In this document: piece after piece, positions 19,013 to 29,901 of the stretch
How the letters are laid out: the number at the start of each line of letters is the position of its first letter
Numbering within the stretch: the stretch's first letter is position 1
From: Marinilabiliaceae bacterium ANBcel2
GTDB lineage: Bacteria > Bacteroidota > Bacteroidia > Bacteroidales > Marinilabiliaceae
Reading direction: 5' to 3'
Assembly: GCA_029688995.1 (NCBI GenBank)
Contig: JARULA010000007.1
Coordinates: 1 to 64,000, forward strand
Length of the DNA stretch: 64,000 bases
The notes under the pieces: generated by a model
Told to the model about the DNA's origin: nothing
Database searches by the model: none
What the model saw: only the letters and a program-made list of their open reading frames with translations
Position numbers and translations under genes: made by a program

Positions 19013-21022
19013 ATGGGACTATCTAAATATGATCCCTGGTTAACACCATACTCCCAGGCACTAAAAAAGAGAAAAGAGATCTATTTAAAAAGATATAATG
19101 AAATAGTTTCTCATTGGGGCTCATTAACCAACTACGCCTCGAATTACAACTATTTTGGTCTGCACAAAACAGATAGTGGATGGATATTTAGAGAGTGGGC
19201 CCCAAATGCGAAAGAGATATATATTACAGGGCAATTTTCAAACTGGAAACCCGAATCTCAATACCGGCTCATAAAAAAAAGTGATGGCACAGCAGAGATA
19301 GAGATGCCTCTATCTCTTTTAACTCATGGTGACCATTACAAACTATATATGGTATGGGAAGGTGGAGAAGGAATGAGAATTCCTGCCTACTGCAGACGTA
19401 CAATACAAGATCCCGATACTCTTCTCTTTAGTGCTCAGGTATGGGATCCAGAACCATTTAAATGGGATGATAACAGTTTTGTAGTACCAAAGCAAGCTCC
19501 GCTTATATATGAAGCACATCCCGGAATAGCTCAGGAGAAAGAGAGTACCGGAACTTTTAAGGAGTTTACAAAAAATATTATTCCCAGGATTGTAGATGCC
19601 GGCTATAATACAATTCAATTGATGGCTGTTCAGGAGCATCCGTTTTACGGAAGTTTTGGATATCATGTAAGTAATTACTTTGCTCCCTCCAGCAGATTTG
19701 GAACACCTGAAGATCTTAAAGAGCTTATTAATGAAGCACACAAACAAGGAGTTGCAGTTATAATGGATATTGTCCACTCTCATTCGGTAAAAAACGAAGA
19801 GGAGGGGTTAAGTAAATTTGACGGAACCCGCAGCCTCTATTTTCATGATGGTGATGCAGGAAATCACCCGGCATGGGATTCACGATGCTTTAATTACGGA
19901 AAAGATGAGGTGACAAGGTTTCTTTTATCAAACTGCCGTTATTGGATAGAGGAGTTCCATTTTGATGGATTTCGTTTTGACGGGGTTACAAGTATGTTCT
20001 ATTATCATCACGGACTCGAAAAGGCGTTTACATCGTACAATGACTATTTTAACGGAGAGCAGGATGGTGATGCAATCCTCTACCTTTCTCTTGCCAATAC
20101 ATTAATCCATCAAATAAAAAAGGATGCTATCTCAGTTGCTGAGGAGATGAGCGGAATGCCAGGAACAACAGCACCTCCCGAAGAAGAGGGGATCGGTTTT
20201 AACTATAGATTGTCGATGGGTGTTCCCGATTTATGGATAAAAATTATTAAGGAAAAAAGTGACGAACAGTGGAATATAGAGCAGCTATATCATGAATTAA
20301 TTCAAAGACGCCCCGAGGAGAAAATTATATCATATGCAGAGTCACATGATCAGGCTCTTGTAGGAGATAAAACTATAATGTTCAGACTGGCAGATAAGGA
20401 GATGTATGATAAAATGGATAAAGATAAAGAGAGCATTATTATCGACCGGGCTATTGCACTGCATAAAATGATAAGACTAATAACTCTTTCAACATCATTT
20501 GGAGGATATCTTAATTTTATGGGTAATGAGTTTGGCCATCCCGAATGGATCGACTTCCCAAGAGATGGTAATAACTGGTCATACAAATATGCCCGACGCC
20601 AATGGAGCCTAACAGATAATGAAAATCTTAAATTCAGTTATCTTAACAGGTTTGATAAAGCTATGGTAGAAATTGCAAAAAAATTTAATCTGCTGACTAT
20701 ACCTGAAATATATTTAAAAACTGCTAATAACAGCGACAAAATAGTAGCATTTGAAAGAGATAAACTGCTGTTTGTCTTCAATTTTAATCCCGAAAAATCA
20801 TTTCCCGATTACGGTATCCCTACATCACAGGGTAAGTACAAAGTTGTACTCACCACCGATCATCCCGATTATGGCGGATTTAATCGTGTCGATATATCAA
20901 TAACGCACTACTCACACAAAACAACAAAAAACCGGAACGAGCATCAATTGCTGCTCTACATTCCGGCTCGTTGCGCTATCATTCTCGAAAAACAGCAAGT
21001 AAAATCAATTTATGACTTATAA
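19013..21022 (+). CDS. glgB: 1,4-alpha-glucan branching enzyme (GH13, eukaryotic-like GBE type)
   Basis: Introduces alpha-1,6 branches into glycogen; 669 residues. An N-terminal CBM48 (about 60-150, FREWAPNAKEIYITGQFSNW) is followed by the GH13 barrel. Catalytic residues are nucleophile Asp323 (DGFRFDGVTSM), acid/base Glu377 (VAEEMSGMPG) and stabiliser Asp446 (ESHDQALVGDKT). The pattern is closer to the eukaryote-type GBE subgroup (GH13_8) than to E. coli GlgB. It ends only three bases from the end of the convergent synthase-phosphorylase fusion, so the glycogen genes meet tail to tail. Confidence 0.95.
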   Translation: MGLSKYDPWLTPYSQALKKRKEIYLKRYNEIVSHWGSLTNYASNYNYFGLHKTDSGWIFREWAPNAKEIYITGQFSNWKPESQYRLIKKSDGTAEIEMPLSLLTHGDHYKLYMVWEGGEGMRIPAYCRRTIQDPDTLLFSAQVWDPEPFKWDDNSFVVPKQAPLIYEAHPGIAQEKESTGTFKEFTKNIIPRIVDAGYNTIQLMAVQEHPFYGSFGYHVSNYFAPSSRFGTPEDLKELINEAHKQGVAVIMDIVHSHSVKNEEEGLSKFDGTRSLYFHDGDAGNHPAWDSRCFNYGKDEVTRFLLSNCRYWIEEFHFDGFRFDGVTSMFYYHHGLEKAFTSYNDYFNGEQDGDAILYLSLANTLIHQIKKDAISVAEEMSGMPGTTAPPEEEGIGFNYRLSMGVPDLWIKIIKEKSDEQWNIEQLYHELIQRRPEEKIISYAESHDQALVGDKTIMFRLADKEMYDKMDKDKESIIIDRAIALHKMIRLITLSTSFGGYLNFMGNEFGHPEWIDFPRDGNNWSYKYARRQWSLTDNENLKFSYLNRFDKAMVEIAKKFNLLTIPEIYLKTANNSDKIVAFERDKLLFVFNFNPEKSFPDYGIPTSQGKYKVVLTTDHPDYGGFNRVDISITHYSHKTTKNRNEHQLLLYIPARCAIILEKQQVKSIYDL

Positions 21023-21025
21023 TCT

Positions 21026-24000
21026 CTAAATCCACTTTACCAGAGCAAAATCCTGACGATATCTTAAAAGATCATGCCGGGGATAAATTCTTATTCCAAA
21101 TCTGAAAACTCCTGGATTTTTTAATTTATAGTCGAGGGTATAATAGAGTTTTGTTCCCTCCTTTTTAGCTACCTTAAAAGTTTTAACTGGAAACAAATCA
21201 GCATCTTTTTCATCTGCAGCCTCCACAACAACAAGCTCAACACCTATATCCACATCAGCAAGCTGTTTTAAATCAAGAACCACCTTAACCGAATATAACT
21301 CGCCCAAACCAAGCTCTTTTTTTCCTATATCGGGCATATCAATCGAAAGCACCTCAATAGAATCCCACCCTGCAAGAACTTTTCTTTTCCAAAAAGCAAT
21401 CTCTCGTATAGCACGATAATCTTCCTTAACCAACATTTCTAATCGCTCTTTCATTGGATAATAAAACTTCTTACAATAATCATCCATCATTCGTCGGGTT
21501 GTATAATGTGGTGCAATCTCTGAAACAGACTTTTTAATATAGGAGATCCATTTTGCAGAAATACCATTTTTATCAACATCAAAATAGGTTGGAATAATCT
21601 CATTTTCAAGGATACTATAAATTGTTAAAGCATCCAGATCATTTTGATAATCACCATTATCATATGTCTGCTCATCAGACAAAGCCCATCCTGCACCTTC
21701 ACGATACCCTTCGTACCACCAACCATCAAGAACACTAAAGTTAAGCACCCCGTTAAGCTCAGCCTTTTCTCCGCTTGTCCCTGATGCTTCCTGCGGTCTG
21801 GTTGGCGTATTCAACCATACATCAACACCACTTACCAACCTCTTGGCAAAATCCATGTCATAATTTTCCAAAAAAATAATTTTCCCTACAAACTCAGGAC
21901 GCCGTGACACCTCAACTATATGTTTAATAAGAGCCTGTCCTGCATCATCAGCCGGATGCGCCTTCCCCGCAAACAAAAACTGAACCGGGTGCTCTTCATT
22001 GTTCACTATCTCCTTTAATCTTTCAATATCTCTAAACAATAGATTTGCTCTCTTGTAAGTTGCAAACCGCCTTGCAAATCCAATTGTTAAAGCATCTTCT
22101 CTAATTGACTCTAAAACTTCAATAGAGTGAGAAGGGCTCTCGTGACGTTGGGTCATCCCCCTTTCTAATCTACGCTTTATATAATCGATAAGCTTTTTCT
22201 TTAAAACCTTTCTTACCTCCCAGATCTTTTGATCAGAAACCTCATAAATTTTTTGCCAAACAGAGCTGTCCGAAACATCATTTAAAAACTCTTTACTAAA
22301 CTCTCCCTCATACAATCTTCTTAAAATATTTGATGTCCAGGTTCCGTAATGTACACCATTAGTAACATGTTTTATATGAAGCTCCGAAGGAAAATATCCT
22401 CTCCATAAATTTTTAAACATCTCTCTGGAAACTTCCCCATGTAACAGACTAACACCATTCATCTCCTGAGAAGTTTTGGCAGCTAAAACGCTCATAGAAA
22501 ACTCCTCACTATCACTGTTAGTTTCACGCCCCATAGAGATGAAATCTTTCCAGGAAATTCTCAACTTCTCGGGAATATGGCGCATATATATTCTAAGAAG
22601 ATCTTCATCAAACTTATCATGTCCGGCCGGAACAGGAGTATGAGTAGTAAAAAGAGAAGATGCTCTTACCAGCTCCATAGCTTCGGCAAAACTATATCTG
22701 CGCGAGGTATATTCAATAAGTCTTTCAACATTTATAAAAGCCGCATGGCCTTCATTACAATGATAGAGATCACTTTCTATCCCAACAGCATTTAAAAGCC
22801 TAACACCTCCTATCCCCAATAATATCTCCTGTTTCAATCTGTTTTCCAATCCACCCCCATATAACATATGAGTTATCTCCCTATCTTGAGATGCATTTTG
22901 AGGGATATCGGTATCCATCAAATATAAAGGAACCTTACCTACACATGCTTTCCAAACTATAGCATTAACCTCACGACCGGGAAAATCAACCTTTACCATA
23001 ACCCTCTCTCCATCATCTCCCCTAACCTCTTCAACAGGCAAATTGGAAAATTCCTGAACATCATAACTGGCAGTCTGTTCACCAAAAACAGTCAATGATT
23101 GTCTAAAATAACCATACCTGTACATTAAGCCAACAGCAACCATATTAACACCCTTATCACTAGCCTCTTTAAGATAATCTCCAGCAAGGATTCCCAATCC
23201 ACCGCTAAATATCTTCAACACATCATTTATTCCGTACTCCATGCTAAAATAAGCTATAGATGGGCTATCTCCAATAAGAGGTCTCGCCATATATGAGTTA
23301 AATTTCACTTCAACATCAGCAAGTCGGGAAATAAAAGATTCATCATTAGACAACTCTTCAAGTCTCTCATAAGAAACTTTGCCCAATAATTTTACAGGAT
23401 TTTTATCCAGCTCCTGCCATAAAACCCTGTCAATATATTCAAAAAGTTCAACGGCCTCATAATTCCATGTCCACCATAAATTACGCACCAGCTTCTGCAA
23501 AAAAGAGATTTTTTCGGGAAGTTTAGATTTAACTACAATCTTTTTCCATGAAGGTTCTGCAATAAAATCAGGGACAATTCTGGCCGGTGACTCATCCACT
23601 GTAAAAGAGAACTTTTCTCTTCTACTGTTAACTTTACCCAAAGCAATATCATAAGCCTTATAGTAATTATCTATAAATTTGGGCCAGGTGAGCTCCTCTG
23701 AAAGAGCTATACTCTTTTTTCTTATAGTTTCACGATCTTGAAGTGAACATTTACTATACTCTTTAATCTCCTCTGCAACAGAATTGACAGCATCATTGTA
23801 ATTAAAATCATCTCGTTCAATAACAGCAACACCATCAATAATACCACCTGTTTTACTCTTCACCCATTGCCCAAATCCTGACAAAGAAGTAGTAACTGCA
23901 GGAACTCCTAAAGAGATGCTCTCAACAGAGGTGTATCCCCATGGCTCATAATATGCAGGAAACAGAGTCAGGTCGGCTCCGGCCATAAGTTCAAAGTAAG

Positions 24001-25261
24001 GAATGTTAAATATCCCATCATCTCCATCAAGATAGGCAGGAACAAAAAATAGTTTAACATTATCTTCAGGATTATTATTCAAATGAATATCTCTTATTCT
24101 GTTAATAATAGGATCATAACCTATGTCATGCAGTCCGTGAGTCAAAAAAGAGTCACACAAAGGCTCTCCATGCTCTCCCGCAGAAAGTCTCTCAATAAGA
24201 TCGTGTCGGGGGCCATAACTATTTGCCGGAATTAAAACAAAACAGAAAATTTCACAACCGGTATCAACAGAATTTAAAAGCTCAAGTGCATCCAGTAACA
24301 GATCGGTTCCTTTATTTCTATATTCATAACGACCGCTGCTGGCAACAAAGAGAGCATTATCAGGAACATCCCTGCCCATTACAGCTGAAGCAACCTCTTT
24401 AAATCTGCTGCGCGACCTGTTTCTTACAATTGAGATCGCATCCCTGCTATCTTCATTGCGAATATCGCCAAACCCATCAGGGGTTATTATATCAGGCTTA
24501 CGCATAAAAAAATGGGAACACTCACGTGCAGTTATTTCAGATAGAGTGGTGAATGTATCGGCATAAAATGCACTTTTAGACTCAAGAGAATGTTTGGCTA
24601 TAACTCCCAAATCCTGAGCTTTCGCCTCTGCATCAAACTCATGCAATTCACTATAAAGCGAGTGACCGCTACCTGCAAGAGAGCGTCCTAAAACGGTAGA
24701 GTGAGCAGTAAAGACTGTTGCAGCCTGTGGCAATTTATCTTTTAAATAAAGTGCGCCTGTTCCTGAAGTCCATTCATTAAAGTGAGTTACAATTTTATCA
24801 GACACTGTTAAATGAAACCGATAAAAACTTTCAATAACAGCGCCGGCAGCATAACCAAAAAGTACCGGCTCAATATAATCCCACTTACCATATATACTAT
24901 CAACTTTATAGGTCTCCCACAAATAGGATAAGATTCTATTCTTTTCAGCCACATAGGGGGTAAAATCAACAAGTAACACCAAAGGTTTACCAGGGATATT
25001 CCACCTGCCGCATCGCACCCTTAACCCTTCATTCAAAAGGGAGTATTGCCAGGAAGCAAAAACTGTATCATCAGGTATAAATTCAGGGTTATTACTAACC
25101 CCCCTTACAACATCCGGACCAACAAAAATAGCCTTGTCACCAAACTCCTGGACCAATGTATCAACTTTCGAAGCAAGTACAGTGTGAACTCCTCCTGTTT
25201 TATTACAAATTTCCCAACCTGTCTCAAAAAGATAATCCGGTTTCAATAATCTTTCTCCCAT
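21026..25261 (-). CDS. fused GT3 glycogen synthase and GT35 alpha-glucan phosphorylase
   Basis: A single reading frame of 1411 residues. Residues 1 to about 545 are a GT3-type glycogen synthase: ETGWEICNKTGGVHTVLASK at the start, and the E-x7-E acceptor/donor motif in YYEPWGYTSVESISLGVPAVTTSLSGFG near residues 430-460. After a short linker, about 575 to 1290 is an alpha-glucan phosphorylase of the DUF3417 subtype, starting LPEKISFLQKLVRNLWWTWN. The PLP-binding Lys is K1166 in EASGTSGEKAELNGVLNF. A C-terminal beta domain of about 110 residues ends the protein. One polypeptide thus carries a glucose-adding and a glucose-releasing (phosphorolytic) domain. It is the last gene of the glycogen operon. 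No frameshift or stop separates the halves. Confidence 0.93.
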   Translation of the reverse strand: MGERLLKPDYLFETGWEICNKTGGVHTVLASKVDTLVQEFGDKAIFVGPDVVRGVSNNPEFIPDDTVFASWQYSLLNEGLRVRCGRWNIPGKPLVLLVDFTPYVAEKNRILSYLWETYKVDSIYGKWDYIEPVLFGYAAGAVIESFYRFHLTVSDKIVTHFNEWTSGTGALYLKDKLPQAATVFTAHSTVLGRSLAGSGHSLYSELHEFDAEAKAQDLGVIAKHSLESKSAFYADTFTTLSEITARECSHFFMRKPDIITPDGFGDIRNEDSRDAISIVRNRSRSRFKEVASAVMGRDVPDNALFVASSGRYEYRNKGTDLLLDALELLNSVDTGCEIFCFVLIPANSYGPRHDLIERLSAGEHGEPLCDSFLTHGLHDIGYDPIINRIRDIHLNNNPEDNVKLFFVPAYLDGDDGIFNIPYFELMAGADLTLFPAYYEPWGYTSVESISLGVPAVTTSLSGFGQWVKSKTGGIIDGVAVIERDDFNYNDAVNSVAEEIKEYSKCSLQDRETIRKKSIALSEELTWPKFIDNYYKAYDIALGKVNSRREKFSFTVDESPARIVPDFIAEPSWKKIVVKSKLPEKISFLQKLVRNLWWTWNYEAVELFEYIDRVLWQELDKNPVKLLGKVSYERLEELSNDESFISRLADVEVKFNSYMARPLIGDSPSIAYFSMEYGINDVLKIFSGGLGILAGDYLKEASDKGVNMVAVGLMYRYGYFRQSLTVFGEQTASYDVQEFSNLPVEEVRGDDGERVMVKVDFPGREVNAIVWKACVGKVPLYLMDTDIPQNASQDREITHMLYGGGLENRLKQEILLGIGGVRLLNAVGIESDLYHCNEGHAAFINVERLIEYTSRRYSFAEAMELVRASSLFTTHTPVPAGHDKFDEDLLRIYMRHIPEKLRISWKDFISMGRETNSDSEEFSMSVLAAKTSQEMNGVSLLHGEVSREMFKNLWRGYFPSELHIKHVTNGVHYGTWTSNILRRLYEGEFSKEFLNDVSDSSVWQKIYEVSDQKIWEVRKVLKKKLIDYIKRRLERGMTQRHESPSHSIEVLESIREDALTIGFARRFATYKRANLLFRDIERLKEIVNNEEHPVQFLFAGKAHPADDAGQALIKHIVEVSRRPEFVGKIIFLENYDMDFAKRLVSGVDVWLNTPTRPQEASGTSGEKAELNGVLNFSVLDGWWYEGYREGAGWALSDEQTYDNGDYQNDLDALTIYSILENEIIPTYFDVDKNGISAKWISYIKKSVSEIAPHYTTRRMMDDYCKKFYYPMKERLEMLVKEDYRAIREIAFWKRKVLAGWDSIEVLSIDMPDIGKKELGLGELYSVKVVLDLKQLADVDIGVELVVVEAADEKDADLFPVKTFKVAKKEGTKLYYTLDYKLKNPGVFRFGIRIYPRHDLLRYRQDFALVKWI

Positions 25262-25296: not shown

Positions 25297-26643
25297 CTAT
25301 TTTGATGCTGATCTCACCTTTTTATCAACTTTTTTCTTAACAATAGTGCGCCTGCGTCTTAACTTTTTTAGCTCTTCCTGCAATTTTTTAATCATCAAAT
25401 CTTTCTCAGAAAGCAGATCAGACAAGTTGGCTATCTCCATTTCAGAATCAGTTTCAGGAACTGCAGCATTAAGAGTGATTATAAAATCACTCAAAATATT
25501 CATATAATTAATAAATGCTTCGTATGGTGTATCATATGGATTAAAATATGCATGAACAGCACCATCAGAAAAAAACTTAGTGCTCATATAATAGAAGTGG
25601 TCACTGCCTTGCAAAAACATCCAGTTTTTTAATAATATGCTATCATCACAAGCCTTTACTTTAGGGAGTAAAGAGTATAACTTATTAAAAGCCTCCTGCT
25701 GCATTTCATTACCAAGCCATGCAGTCAAATCTCTCTCTTCATCTGCCCAGGAGACAGGATAAGGAACACTTAAAGCTGCTACAGGCTGAAGCATAGAAGC
25801 AATCTTTGAAGGAGTTGCAAACCTTATGCCCCCTCTTTTAAAAACCTCAACAGGCAGATGTTCGAAAAACTCAAAAATACCTGTACTCTTATCTTGATGT
25901 TCACCAAAGGTCTCATAATCCATAAAAATATTTACAACCTCCTCTTTTTTATCAAGAGCTTCAATCCAATCAACATATTTTTTTGCTGTTAAAGGCCACT
26001 CACTCCATCCCTTATCTCCAAAGCGAAAAGCAATATCATCACTCAACTTGTAATTTTTAAGCAATAATTTTAAACGAGGATTAACTACATTATAATATAA
26101 AAAGTCGGGACTCTTCCAGCCCAAAATATGTTTGGCCCCCTCGGTAAGCATAGCCTTATAACCCATCGAAGCAACCACCTCTCCAATTTTATCGGAATAG
26201 ATAAGTTCAGTATTCCTGAAAACAGAAGGTCGTTGTCCAAAAAGAGTCTCAATGATATCTGCATGTGCCTTAACCTGCTCTTTAAAACCCTCTTCATCAG
26301 CAAGGGATGCCAAAGAGTGAGAATAAGTTTCGGCCAAAAACTCTACCATCCCGGTATCTGCAAGTTTTTTAAAACTCTCAAGCACTTCAGGAGCATACAA
26401 CTTAAACTGCTCTATTGCCAATCCGCTTATAGAAAAAGCAATCTTAAACCTACCTTTATGTTTTTTAAGCATCTTCAAAAGCAACTCATTTGCCGGAAGA
26501 TAACATCGCGAAGCAACCTTTGTCATTATAAGCTCATTGGTATAATCATCAAAATAGTAATGATCATTACCAATATCAAAAAATCGATAACGTCTTAGTC
26601 GGAAAGGCTGATGCACCTGAAAATAAAAACATATTGTCTTCAT
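25297..26643 (-). CDS. glycoside hydrolase family 57 alpha-amylase-like protein
   Basis: 448 residues, no signal peptide, so probably cytoplasmic. The GH57 start CFYFQVHQPFRLRRYRFFDI is clear. The predicted nucleophile Glu lies in FRNTELIYSD and the acid/base Asp in FMDYETFGEHQD. The last 45 residues are a basic coiled-coil tail (SEKDLMIKKLQEELKKLRRRR). GH57 members include amylases, 4-alpha-glucanotransferases and branching enzymes, so the exact reaction is uncertain, but its place between a GT4 gene and the synthase-phosphorylase fusion points to glycogen turnover. Gaps to its neighbours are 18 and 35 bases. Confidence 0.9.
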   Translation of the reverse strand: MKTICFYFQVHQPFRLRRYRFFDIGNDHYYFDDYTNELIMTKVASRCYLPANELLLKMLKKHKGRFKIAFSISGLAIEQFKLYAPEVLESFKKLADTGMVEFLAETYSHSLASLADEEGFKEQVKAHADIIETLFGQRPSVFRNTELIYSDKIGEVVASMGYKAMLTEGAKHILGWKSPDFLYYNVVNPRLKLLLKNYKLSDDIAFRFGDKGWSEWPLTAKKYVDWIEALDKKEEVVNIFMDYETFGEHQDKSTGIFEFFEHLPVEVFKRGGIRFATPSKIASMLQPVAALSVPYPVSWADEERDLTAWLGNEMQQEAFNKLYSLLPKVKACDDSILLKNWMFLQGSDHFYYMSTKFFSDGAVHAYFNPYDTPYEAFINYMNILSDFIITLNAAVPETDSEMEIANLSDLLSEKDLMIKKLQEELKKLRRRRTIVKKKVDKKVRSASK

Positions 26644-26661: not shown

Positions 26662-27957
26662 TTAATGCCTGCTGTTTAATAACCTGTCATATATTTTTTT
26701 TACATGTTGTGCCGATTTCCCCCACTGTAAAGATTCTACCTCCTTTTTACCATGTAACACAAACATCTTTGGAAGAGCCGAATAGTTTAACACGCCGTAA
26801 ATTGCGTCAGCCATCGCATCAACATCCCAAAAATTGGTCTTTATAGCATAAGTTAATATTTCGGATACCCCTGACTGGTATGATATAAGAACAGGAACAT
26901 TGCTTTGCATTGCTTCAAGCGGACTAATACCAAAGGGTTCTGAAACCGAAGGCATAACATACAAATCACTCATCGAGAGCATCTCGTAAACATCATCTCC
27001 TTTTAAAAAACCGGTAAAATGAAACTTGTCAGTTATTTTAAGTTGAGCTACTCTTCTAACCATCTTCTCCATCATATCGCCACTACCGGCCATCACAAAA
27101 CGAACATTATCCATTTTTTGAAGCACACGATAAGCAGCCTCAATAAAATATTCTGGACCTTTTTGCATAGTGATTCTTCCCAAAAAAGTAACCAGCTTTT
27201 CATCCACACCCTTGTTTTTCAATTTGGGTTTACCCTTTTCGTATGGTTCTACAGCATTATAAACAGTCTCAATTTTAGAGGGATCAATACCATACTTTTC
27301 AATTACAGTACTACGCGTTAAATTACTAACAGCAATAATTTTATCAGCAGCATTCATTCCTCTCTTCTCTATCTCAAAAACTGCAGGATTAACACTTCCT
27401 CCACTTCGATCAAAATCGGTAGCATGAACATGAATAATGAGCGGTTTGCCGGTAGCCTCTTTTGCAGCAATACCAGCCGGATATGCCAGCCAATCATGTG
27501 CATGAATAAGGTCAAAAGAGGAGTCCTGTGCAATAATATTTGCAACAAAGGCATAATTTTTTATCTCCTCAAGAAGCGATGGACCATACTTTCCTGAAAA
27601 CTCTATCTTTCCATTCTCATTTGTCTTAACCAGTTGATGACCTCTTTTAGAACTCCTTTTGCTATATCTCCAAAACTCTTCAGGATTGGAATAGGGAACA
27701 ATTTTCGAGTCAACCTCTATATAATCAAGCTGTTCGGTAATCTGCTTTGATCTAACTTTACGATGATTAACAGAGACCTCATTTGCTCCAAGAAGTTGCA
27801 TGCCTGTTTGATCTTCATCACCATATGCGCGTGGAACAACAAAGAGAACCTCAAGCTCCTTTATTGTTGCCAATCCGCGTGTCAAACCATAACAGGCAGT
27901 CCCCAATCCGCCGGATATATGTGGAGGAAACTCCCAGCCAAACATTAATACCCGCAT
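26662..27957 (-). CDS. GT4 family glycosyltransferase of the glycogen operon
   Basis: 431-residue cytoplasmic GT-B glycosyltransferase. The N terminus VLMFGWEFPPHISGGLGTACYGL resembles the starch-synthase-like GT4/GT5 entry loop. The C-terminal half has the nucleotide-sugar site VTFLGRITMQKGPEYFIEAA and the EPFGISPLEAM E-x7-E motif. It starts three bases after the debranching-enzyme stop and is followed by the GH57 gene. It may prime or extend alpha-glucan using a nucleotide sugar. The substrate cannot be read from the sequence. Confidence 0.87.
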   Translation of the reverse strand: MRVLMFGWEFPPHISGGLGTACYGLTRGLATIKELEVLFVVPRAYGDEDQTGMQLLGANEVSVNHRKVRSKQITEQLDYIEVDSKIVPYSNPEEFWRYSKRSSKRGHQLVKTNENGKIEFSGKYGPSLLEEIKNYAFVANIIAQDSSFDLIHAHDWLAYPAGIAAKEATGKPLIIHVHATDFDRSGGSVNPAVFEIEKRGMNAADKIIAVSNLTRSTVIEKYGIDPSKIETVYNAVEPYEKGKPKLKNKGVDEKLVTFLGRITMQKGPEYFIEAAYRVLQKMDNVRFVMAGSGDMMEKMVRRVAQLKITDKFHFTGFLKGDDVYEMLSMSDLYVMPSVSEPFGISPLEAMQSNVPVLISYQSGVSEILTYAIKTNFWDVDAMADAIYGVLNYSALPKMFVLHGKKEVESLQWGKSAQHVKKIYDRLLNSRH

Positions 27958-27960
27958 AAG

Positions 27961-29901
27961 CTAAATATATTTTTCAGTTAACTTTATAATTTGCATAACA
28001 GCCGAAACGCTCCACGCCATACTAACTGCACCTTTAGCATTGTGTGGCGGATTCCCGTCAAAACATTCAGATATTGTACTAATACAATGTTCTCCCATCT
28101 CTTTATCGAAACCATCAATAAGAGAATGCACAAGTGAAAGACCTGCCTTTTTATTAATAGAAAGGTACCCCTTAACAAAAAAGGGAAGCAACCAGGGATA
28201 AACTGTCCCCTGATGAAGAGCCAAATCTCTCTCCCTTTGATCACCCTCAACAACTCCCTTATATTGGGGTGAAGAGGGAGATAACGTTCTTAAACCTTTT
28301 GGTGTTAACAACTCTCTCTCAACAACATCCAAAACCATCTTTTTTTGTAAAGAGGAGAGGGGAGAATAACTTAAAGATGTAGCAATAACCTGATTGGGTC
28401 TTATACAAGAACCTTTATCATCGCCATCAACATAATCATAAAGATACCCCCCTTCACTATTCCAAAAAAGATCAACAAAAGAGTTTTTAACCTTTGAAAT
28501 AAGAATAGAAATATTTTCATAACTCTCATTCCTCTCTTTAGTTACACACTTTTCAAAATAGTAACAAAGAGCATTATACCACAATGCATTTATCTCCACA
28601 ACATAGCCCGGACGTTGGGTAACAGGAGCTCCATCCACAACTGCATCCATCCAGGTTAACGAACACCCCTCCTTTTTGGTATAAATCAATCCATTATCAC
28701 CAACCCTTAAAAGCCCTGAACTGCGCCTTAGTATCACCTCAATAATCTCAACCATAACATCTCTGTATCGACTGCACAAATCGATATCAGGAACAATATC
28801 CTCTAACTGTTGAAGCGTGTGAAAAAGCCATAAAGGAACATCAGCATCTTTAAGATTGTAACGTAATCCTGCATCATTCTCGCCAAGATATTTAGTTCTT
28901 ACATCCTTCACTGCCTGATCAAGAATTTTAATATATATATCCCTGTTTTCCTGATAACTCATTAATCCCGGCAAGGCAATAAGAGTATCTCTTAACCTCT
29001 CATCATACCAATGATAACCTGCCAAAAGCTTCTGCTTATCACCTCTTACCTGAATAAACTGCTCAGATGAGTTTAAAAGATTGTGTAATAGCGTATCACG
29101 TGGAATACGTTTTTTCTGTTCCCTTGTAAATTTAGCCTTTAAGCCGGCAGGTTTAGACTCATCGGTTGCTGCAGAAAATATAACCGAACTACCCTTTTTT
29201 AACTCCAGCTCAAAATATCCCGGCACAAAAAGATCCTCCTTATAAGGATATCCCCTGTTCATCTCCTTTAAATACTCAATACCACGATACCAATCGGGAG
29301 TGGCAACAAACTCGCTGCTATTACTCAACTGCATCGAAAGAAATGGAAATCCCTCATACATCTTAATTTTTATCCCATTATCAATATCATGGTAACGGGT
29401 ATTAGCTGCCAGGTTATCATGAGTTAGCTGATGGATATTTCTAAAAGCCAAAAAAGGCTTTAATCTTATTTTGGTTAGCGAATGAGCCTGCTCCAATGAG
29501 ACCTTACAGAGAAATTGGTCTCTGTTTTCAACCATTAAAAACTCAGTGGATAATACAATACCACCTACCCGGTAAACGCGCTTAGGAAACTTTTCAAGAT
29601 CAAAATGGGTCAAATATTTATGCCCGCGAGGACTATATTCATTCCCCCCATACTTATGTATCCCCAAATTAAACTCCTGATCATGTTGTATAACAGAGAT
29701 ATCAAGAGAAGATAAAAGGACAAACTTGCCTCCGTCAAAATGTTCTACAGGGGATACAAGTAATCCATGATATTTACGGGTATTACAACCGGTCAATGTA
29801 GTTGAAGAGTATGCCCCCGAACGATTTGTCCTTAAAATCTCGCGATAGAGAGAATACTCCAGATTTACCAATCTGGACTTATCAATATTAAAATATGCCA
29901 T
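27961..29901 (-). CDS. glycogen debranching enzyme (amylo-alpha-1,6-glucosidase)
   Basis: 646 residues. The N-terminal beta-rich domain characteristic of bacterial GDE opens with NRSGAYSSTTLTGCNTRKYHGLL. The C-terminal (alpha/alpha)6 amylo-1,6-glucosidase domain (GH133-like) has DADVPLWLFHTLQQL, NALWYNALCYYFEK and HQGTVYPWLLPFFVKGY. It removes alpha-1,6 glucosyl stubs from glycogen and is likely cytoplasmic, since there is no signal peptide. It is the first gene of the minus-strand glycogen operon, with a candidate -7 box at 29999-29992. Confidence 0.92.
   Translation of the reverse strand: MAYFNIDKSRLVNLEYSLYREILRTNRSGAYSSTTLTGCNTRKYHGLLVSPVEHFDGGKFVLLSSLDISVIQHDQEFNLGIHKYGGNEYSPRGHKYLTHFDLEKFPKRVYRVGGIVLSTEFLMVENRDQFLCKVSLEQAHSLTKIRLKPFLAFRNIHQLTHDNLAANTRYHDIDNGIKIKMYEGFPFLSMQLSNSSEFVATPDWYRGIEYLKEMNRGYPYKEDLFVPGYFELELKKGSSVIFSAATDESKPAGLKAKFTREQKKRIPRDTLLHNLLNSSEQFIQVRGDKQKLLAGYHWYDERLRDTLIALPGLMSYQENRDIYIKILDQAVKDVRTKYLGENDAGLRYNLKDADVPLWLFHTLQQLEDIVPDIDLCSRYRDVMVEIIEVILRRSSGLLRVGDNGLIYTKKEGCSLTWMDAVVDGAPVTQRPGYVVEINALWYNALCYYFEKCVTKERNESYENISILISKVKNSFVDLFWNSEGGYLYDYVDGDDKGSCIRPNQVIATSLSYSPLSSLQKKMVLDVVERELLTPKGLRTLSPSSPQYKGVVEGDQRERDLALHQGTVYPWLLPFFVKGYLSINKKAGLSLVHSLIDGFDKEMGEHCISTISECFDGNPPHNAKGAVSMAWSVSAVMQIIKLTEKYI

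Follow-up and report, generated by a model that had tools for sequence, protein, structure and literature searches.

Fusions of two glycogen enzymes have been described before, among them TreS-Mak/Pep2 and GlgB-MalQ (passages of PMC11046441), and KEGG number K16153 is labelled 'glycogen phosphorylase/synthase' (EC 2.4.1.1 2.4.1.11) in passages of PMC8307300; the same number appears by itself in those of PMC11093988. In this report we examine a gene of Marinilabiliaceae bacterium ANBcel2 (Bacteroidales) that appears to join a glycogen synthase of family GT3 and a glycogen phosphorylase of family GT35 in one polypeptide. It lies within the first 64,000 nucleotides of contig JARULA010000007.1, the whole of which stretch we call the window. 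As in TreS-Mak/Pep2 and GlgB-MalQ, two glycogen-pathway enzymes share a chain, although the enzymes are different; the dual name and dual EC number of K16153 fit the architecture, a likeness of label only. Since K16153 already carries the dual name, the architecture cannot be called new to databases. A literature search that drew mostly on titles and the openings of abstracts, with most subscription journals outside its coverage, yielded no account of this fusion and no biochemistry of a Bacteroidales fusion. The new part concerns direction: the fusion is probably older, and the separate genes derived.

Known counterparts include the adjacent gene pairs of Bacteroides and Xylanibacter (loci L132, L129 and L117), which encode the same two proteins in the same order and on the same strand, but in two frames, with the break within the linker region; their phosphorylases belong to the split clade described below. 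With a probability of roughly 0.78, and on the strength of sequence comparisons, we read the ANBcel2 gene as encoding a tethered glycogen enzyme of two activities that was ancestral in Bacteroidales and was split by one fission in the linker.

The fused gene and its two halves

Read from 25261 to 21026 on the minus strand, the gene is a single open frame of 1411 codons with zero stops; the plus-strand reading contains 53. A preliminary description of this DNA had proposed one uninterrupted 1411-codon frame, and its coordinates were right, with the gene on the minus strand. When the 2.98-Mb genome was searched with the fusion protein, only 1 match was found. The closest named relatives are Marinilabiliaceae, namely Alkaliflexus imshenetskii at 64% identity and Alkalitalea and Natronoflexus at 63% (best-segment values). 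Among the matches listed, the frame is likewise uninterrupted in 4 of the 5 other genomes of the same family (the fifth matched too), and it is continuous in named Marinilabiliaceae from independent assemblies. Because of this recurrence, a sequencing error concealing a stop near codon 560, which the preliminary description had considered, is very unlikely. The first gene of split relatives does end in the linker at this position, as might be said in favour of an assembly or sequencing artefact, but the continuous frame is shared by many independent assemblies, and we consider an artefact virtually out of the question.

The N-terminal half is placed among GT3 glycogen synthases by its match to Pfam Glycogen_syn (PF05693; aa 13–345 in the better of two stretches, 308 bits against a gathering cut-off of 27) and by the presence of E439, E447, R311 and K317; a Pfam GT-B C-terminal match lies at aa 424–506. 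It does not group with GT5 GlgA, the ADP-glucose type, as TIGR02095 scored 44.8 bits against a cut-off of 328.45, and over the C-terminal part only. The solved GT3 enzymes nearest by sequence are the human and yeast glycogen synthases, GYS1 and Gsy2, which belong to the same Pfam family and whose catalytic motifs align with those of the bacterial half. The latter is shorter, however, and in the alignment it does not retain the Arg-rich helix of GYS1, which we take to be regulatory. We also take the E-x7-E motif formed by E439 and E447 to be catalytic, and R311 and K317 to bind phosphate. Residues were counted in 105 full-length fused rows and 58 split rows, L136 and L175, fused rows whose GT3 is truncated, being excluded. 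R311 and E439 were each present in 104/105 fused rows (the exceptions being one Ser and one Asp, respectively), K317 and E447 in 105/105, and all four in 58/58 split rows; within the narrower set of 99 fused rows used below for the linker, E439 was found in 98 and E447 in 99.

The C-terminal half is a GT35 phosphorylase of the TIGR02094/DUF3417 type. TIGR02094 matches aa 669–1268 with 850 bits (cut-off 191.7), PF11897 scores 113 bits (cut-off 25), Pfam Phosphorylase matches aa 834–1180, and the position of the lysine for pyridoxal phosphate (PLP) is aligned. This half is colinear with the stand-alone alpha-glucan phosphorylase of PDB 9l6i/20yr, a solved chain without a synthase domain, and none of the 14 solved sequences that matched the whole protein at E ≤1e-20 spans both halves. 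The Lys of the GTGNMK motif presumably holds PLP, and the catalytic roles of the other phosphorylase residues are likewise assumed; R1065, K1070, T1162 and K1166 were each present in 105/105 fused and 58/58 split rows. The two domain identities and the PLP position that the preliminary description had assigned are thus borne out, as is the presence of a phosphorylase from about aa 575; its proposed end near aa 1290 falls short, since the homology reaches the C-terminus.

Both active sites look intact, and we infer that both enzymatic activities reside in one chain. That one half, most likely GT3, is no catalyst but a degenerate partner or an anchor for glycogen would be in keeping with two loci of family f87 in which GT3 residues 1–263 or 1–287 are joined to a full phosphorylase; yet the catalytic residues are near-invariant among full-length rows, and we think a degenerate half improbable. 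The f87 genes, L175 and L150/L136 (1157 and 1188 aa), have matches limited to GT3 residues 1–287 and 1–263, without the catalytic C-terminal part. Two other genomes of that genus, G632 and G769, match over the whole length.

Distribution of fused and separate genes

A match at E ≤1e-20 was found in 352 of 393 Bacteroidales genomes. Nearly all of the matches listed, best first, span both halves, a proportion from which the fused fraction of the order is not derivable. Seven of those listed contain in-frame stops; five were examined, of which G527, G501, G623 and G763 are split and G661 is fused. By stop-to-stop open reading frames (ORFs), G347, G596 and others are split as well. At the ORF level we compared 205 rows (217 classified, minus 5 shorter duplicates, L002–L006, and 7 exact duplicates), comprising 107 fused, 58 split and 40 with glycogen phosphorylase (GP) only, 24 of the last being the outgroup. 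Fused proteins therefore make up 107 of the 181 non-outgroup proteins, in a non-random sample to which split genomes were added deliberately. As for the 16 non-outgroup GP-only rows, one is of another order (L213), two lie at contig ends (L135 and L214) and others may hold GT3 elsewhere; five of the 16 fall inside the split clade.

The fused architecture is ordinary for Bacteroidales. Split genes occur in Bacteroides, Xylanibacter and others, and the Bacteroides and Xylanibacter loci named above (L117, L129, L132) bear out the separate neighbouring genes that the preliminary description had mentioned for Bacteroides. Its implication that the fusion is an oddity did not hold, as the fusion is common in the order and the derived state is most likely that of separate genes. 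The matches listed from other classes of the phylum are to the phosphorylase half alone. One match in another class, G023:C90:35686-38238, lies in a reported 1970-aa open frame, possibly a different fusion; this frame figure is unreliable elsewhere.

Direction of evolution

In the tree of the phosphorylase half, a single clade (support 100) holds all 58 split rows together with 5 GP-only rows; it is nested in fused rows and adjoins the clade of the ANBcel2 protein. On this tree the label 'split' needs 4 changes and 'fused' 8, with GP-only rows interleaving. The GT3-half tree, which is unrooted, has a single branch (support 100) dividing fused from split. Approximately unbiased (AU) tests on the gene trees (76 GP and 75 GT3 rows, LG+G4) were compatible with the fused rows as one clade, with p-AU 0.207 (log-likelihood difference, dlnL, 38.9) for GP and p-AU 0.488 (dlnL 0.7) for GT3, where other GT3s served as outgroup. 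Because both rootings left the direction unsettled, a species tree was built from rpoB and rpoC of 28 genomes, of which 15 are fused, 8 are split and 5 are outgroup members of the same class. Of 30 genomes tried, two dropped out, G437 for want of a match and G462 because its rpoB is broken; G399 was included without rpoC. Here the split genomes form one clade (support 100), nested among fused genomes and adjoining the family of ANBcel2, and the arrangement with fused genomes as one clade is rejected (dlnL 146, p-AU 5.4e-8).

The split pairs carry marks of their own. Both genes share a strand in all 58, and the gap between them is 1–205 nt in 55. In 55/58 the phosphorylase frame has its first ATG 15–16 residues before aligned aa 576, at about residue 560 of the ANBcel2 protein. 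One fission in the linker would best explain this common start point and the same-strand adjacency. GT3 and GP distances are correlated in both forms (r 0.84 fused, 0.85 split; 0/500 permutations as high). From these comparisons we conclude that the fusion was probably ancestral in Bacteroidales and that the Bacteroides arrangement is one derived fission. Were separate genes ancestral instead, with fusion arising once or several times within the order, the gene-tree AU results and the solitary phosphorylase in the matches listed from other classes would be accommodated. However, a single clade of fused genomes is rejected by the species tree. Fusion would have to have occurred several times independently, and yet the aligned domain edges are 25–43 residues apart in 104 of 107 fused rows and the split start point is shared. 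We regard ancestral separate genes as unlikely.

The linker

Among the 99 fused rows of 1381–1499 aa in which conservation and Met content were scored, conservation is lowest in the linker (column mean 0.39, compared with 0.48–0.71 in the other blocks). AlphaFold2 was run on two constructs, residues 1–1200 and 212–1411 (47 rows; predicted template modelling scores 0.77 and 0.67). The predicted local distance difference test (pLDDT) score was <50 at aa 555–577 in one construct and at aa 552–574 in the second, with the flanking domains confidently modelled. Codons 545–580 of the ANBcel2 gene contain no ATG, there is a GTG at codon 555, and 38/99 fused rows have a Met in the aligned junction, at scattered positions. 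Because the linker is poorly conserved, predicted with low confidence and without ATG, these results speak for a loose tether rather than a rigid channel, and they argue against separate translation of the phosphorylase. A fusion at the DNA level only, with the product cleaved or translated as two proteins, would suit the weak conservation and low model confidence of the linker and the GTG at codon 555; the missing ATG and the scatter of Met speak against it, and we assign it a low likelihood.

Channelling via a rigid interface was considered and is unsupported by the two truncated models, given here with no inter-domain error. Nor did we find support for the channelling or domain switching that the preliminary description had raised, the linker being modelled as above and the catalytic residues being kept in fused and split proteins alike.

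Neighbouring genes and other synthases

The features of the locus are collected in Table 1, in which neighbourhood counts refer to 42 fused, non-duplicate named loci of >12 kb, some with flanks shortened by contig ends. The GH57, GT4-like and debranching-enzyme (GDE) genes lie upstream of the fusion and point the same way, and many other fused genes have this cluster upstream as well. The GlgB-like gene and the fusion are convergent, with ends 3 nt apart. A KdsB protein of the window was matched in 9/42 fused loci. In two split loci of the same comparison, none of the GDE, GT4, GH57, GlgB and KdsB proteins had a match, and the same five were unmatched in 18 further split genomes over the segment searched, about 8 kb upstream of GT3; elsewhere in those genomes they may be present. 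In L129, GDE-GT4-GH57 was not found; L117 and L132 were too short for inclusion.

Table 1. Features of the fused gene and its neighbours in the window
Feature	Coordinates	Strand	Remarks
Fused glycogen synthase-phosphorylase gene	21026..25261	-	1411 aa, continuous frame
GT3 glycogen synthase half	23600..25246	-	About aa 6-554; PF05693; human GYS1 (8cvx) E 8.5e-78, yeast Gsy2
GT3 E439 + E447 (E-x7-E)	23921..23947	-	Aligned with human GYS1 motif
Linker	23537..23629	-	aa 545-575; lowest conservation, pLDDT <50, no ATG in codons 545-580
Alpha-glucan phosphorylase half	21029..23578	-	aa 562-1411; PDB 9l6i E about 1e-300, colinear; TIGR02094
DUF3417 domain	23216..23521	-	aa 581-682; PF11897 E 1.2e-32
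Lys1166, predicted PLP lysine	21764..21766	-	Aligns with residue 646 of MalP (E. coli maltodextrin phosphorylase), chain 1ahp, GTGNMK motif Lys
GlgB-like GH13 branching enzyme	19013..21022	+	Best NCBIfam matches GlgB, under cut-offs; 17/42 fused loci
GH57 protein	25297..26643	-	PF03065; same direction, 35 nt upstream of fusion; 32/42 fused loci
GT4-like glycosyltransferase	26662..27957	-	PF00534/PF13439; 31/42 fused loci
Glycogen debranching enzyme (GDE_N + GDE_C)	27961..29901	-	Pfam; 30/42 fused loci

No full-length GT5 synthase was found in the ANBcel2 genome, only a fragment, in agreement with a statement on Bacteroidetes in a passage of PMC11046441. The fragment is a 266-aa ORF on contig C6 (L222:1408-2208) that matches GT5 glycogen synthase over its N-terminal part only; the gene beside it looks like panC. 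Certain genomes from other orders of the class (L232–L240) have a longer GT3 (609–628 aa, its N-terminal part 31–37% identical), and in two f110 genomes this longer GT3 accompanies the fusion.

Discussion

In the mechanism that we propose, the N-terminal GT3 synthase would use a nucleotide-sugar donor to extend alpha-1,4-glucan chains, and the C-terminal GT35 phosphorylase would trim chains to glucose 1-phosphate. The two domains would be linked by a tether, probably flexible and about 25–40 residues long, whose presumed benefit is that both enzymes sit in a 1:1 ratio on one glycogen particle and act as a unit of storage turnover. Their opposed activities would act on a common substrate, the non-reducing ends of glycogen, and since this substrate is a polymer end, direct channelling is not invoked. 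The adjacent separate genes of Bacteroides and its kin would have arisen via one gene fission inside the linker.

Besides the gene-tree AU tests given above, the following points weigh against this reading. Other stretches of the models, either short or at construct cut ends, likewise have pLDDT <50. In five f60 genomes (G398, G515, G612, G692, G754) only the phosphorylase was found; these may have lost GT3. The existence of split, phosphorylase-only (f60) and truncated-GT3 (f87) lineages means that the covalent link is not essential. Finally, neither GlgC (best 24.8 bits) nor GalU (best 49.1 bits) was above cut-off in the ANBcel2 genome; the ORF with the best match looks like RmlA, and a search with PF01704 was uninformative, the controls giving no match. 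According to a passage of PMC10395257, members of Bacteroidetes lack GlgC. UDP-glucose as donor is our guess from the GT3 family and from GlgC being below cut-off, and it lacks support because GalU is below cut-off too and a donor-making enzyme was not found.

We also entertain, tentatively and as the less probable case, that the tether itself is functional. The ancestral synthase-phosphorylase unit on the glycogen particle would then determine turnover or the length of chain ends, and this would have been lost a single time, on the line of descent to Bacteroides and the remaining split families, as the glycogen gene cluster broke up.

These comparisons suggest that an arrangement which is odd from the viewpoint of Bacteroides may be ancestral in its order. 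The orthologous fused and split enzymes provide a natural comparison for the effect of tethering two opposed enzymes on a storage polymer.

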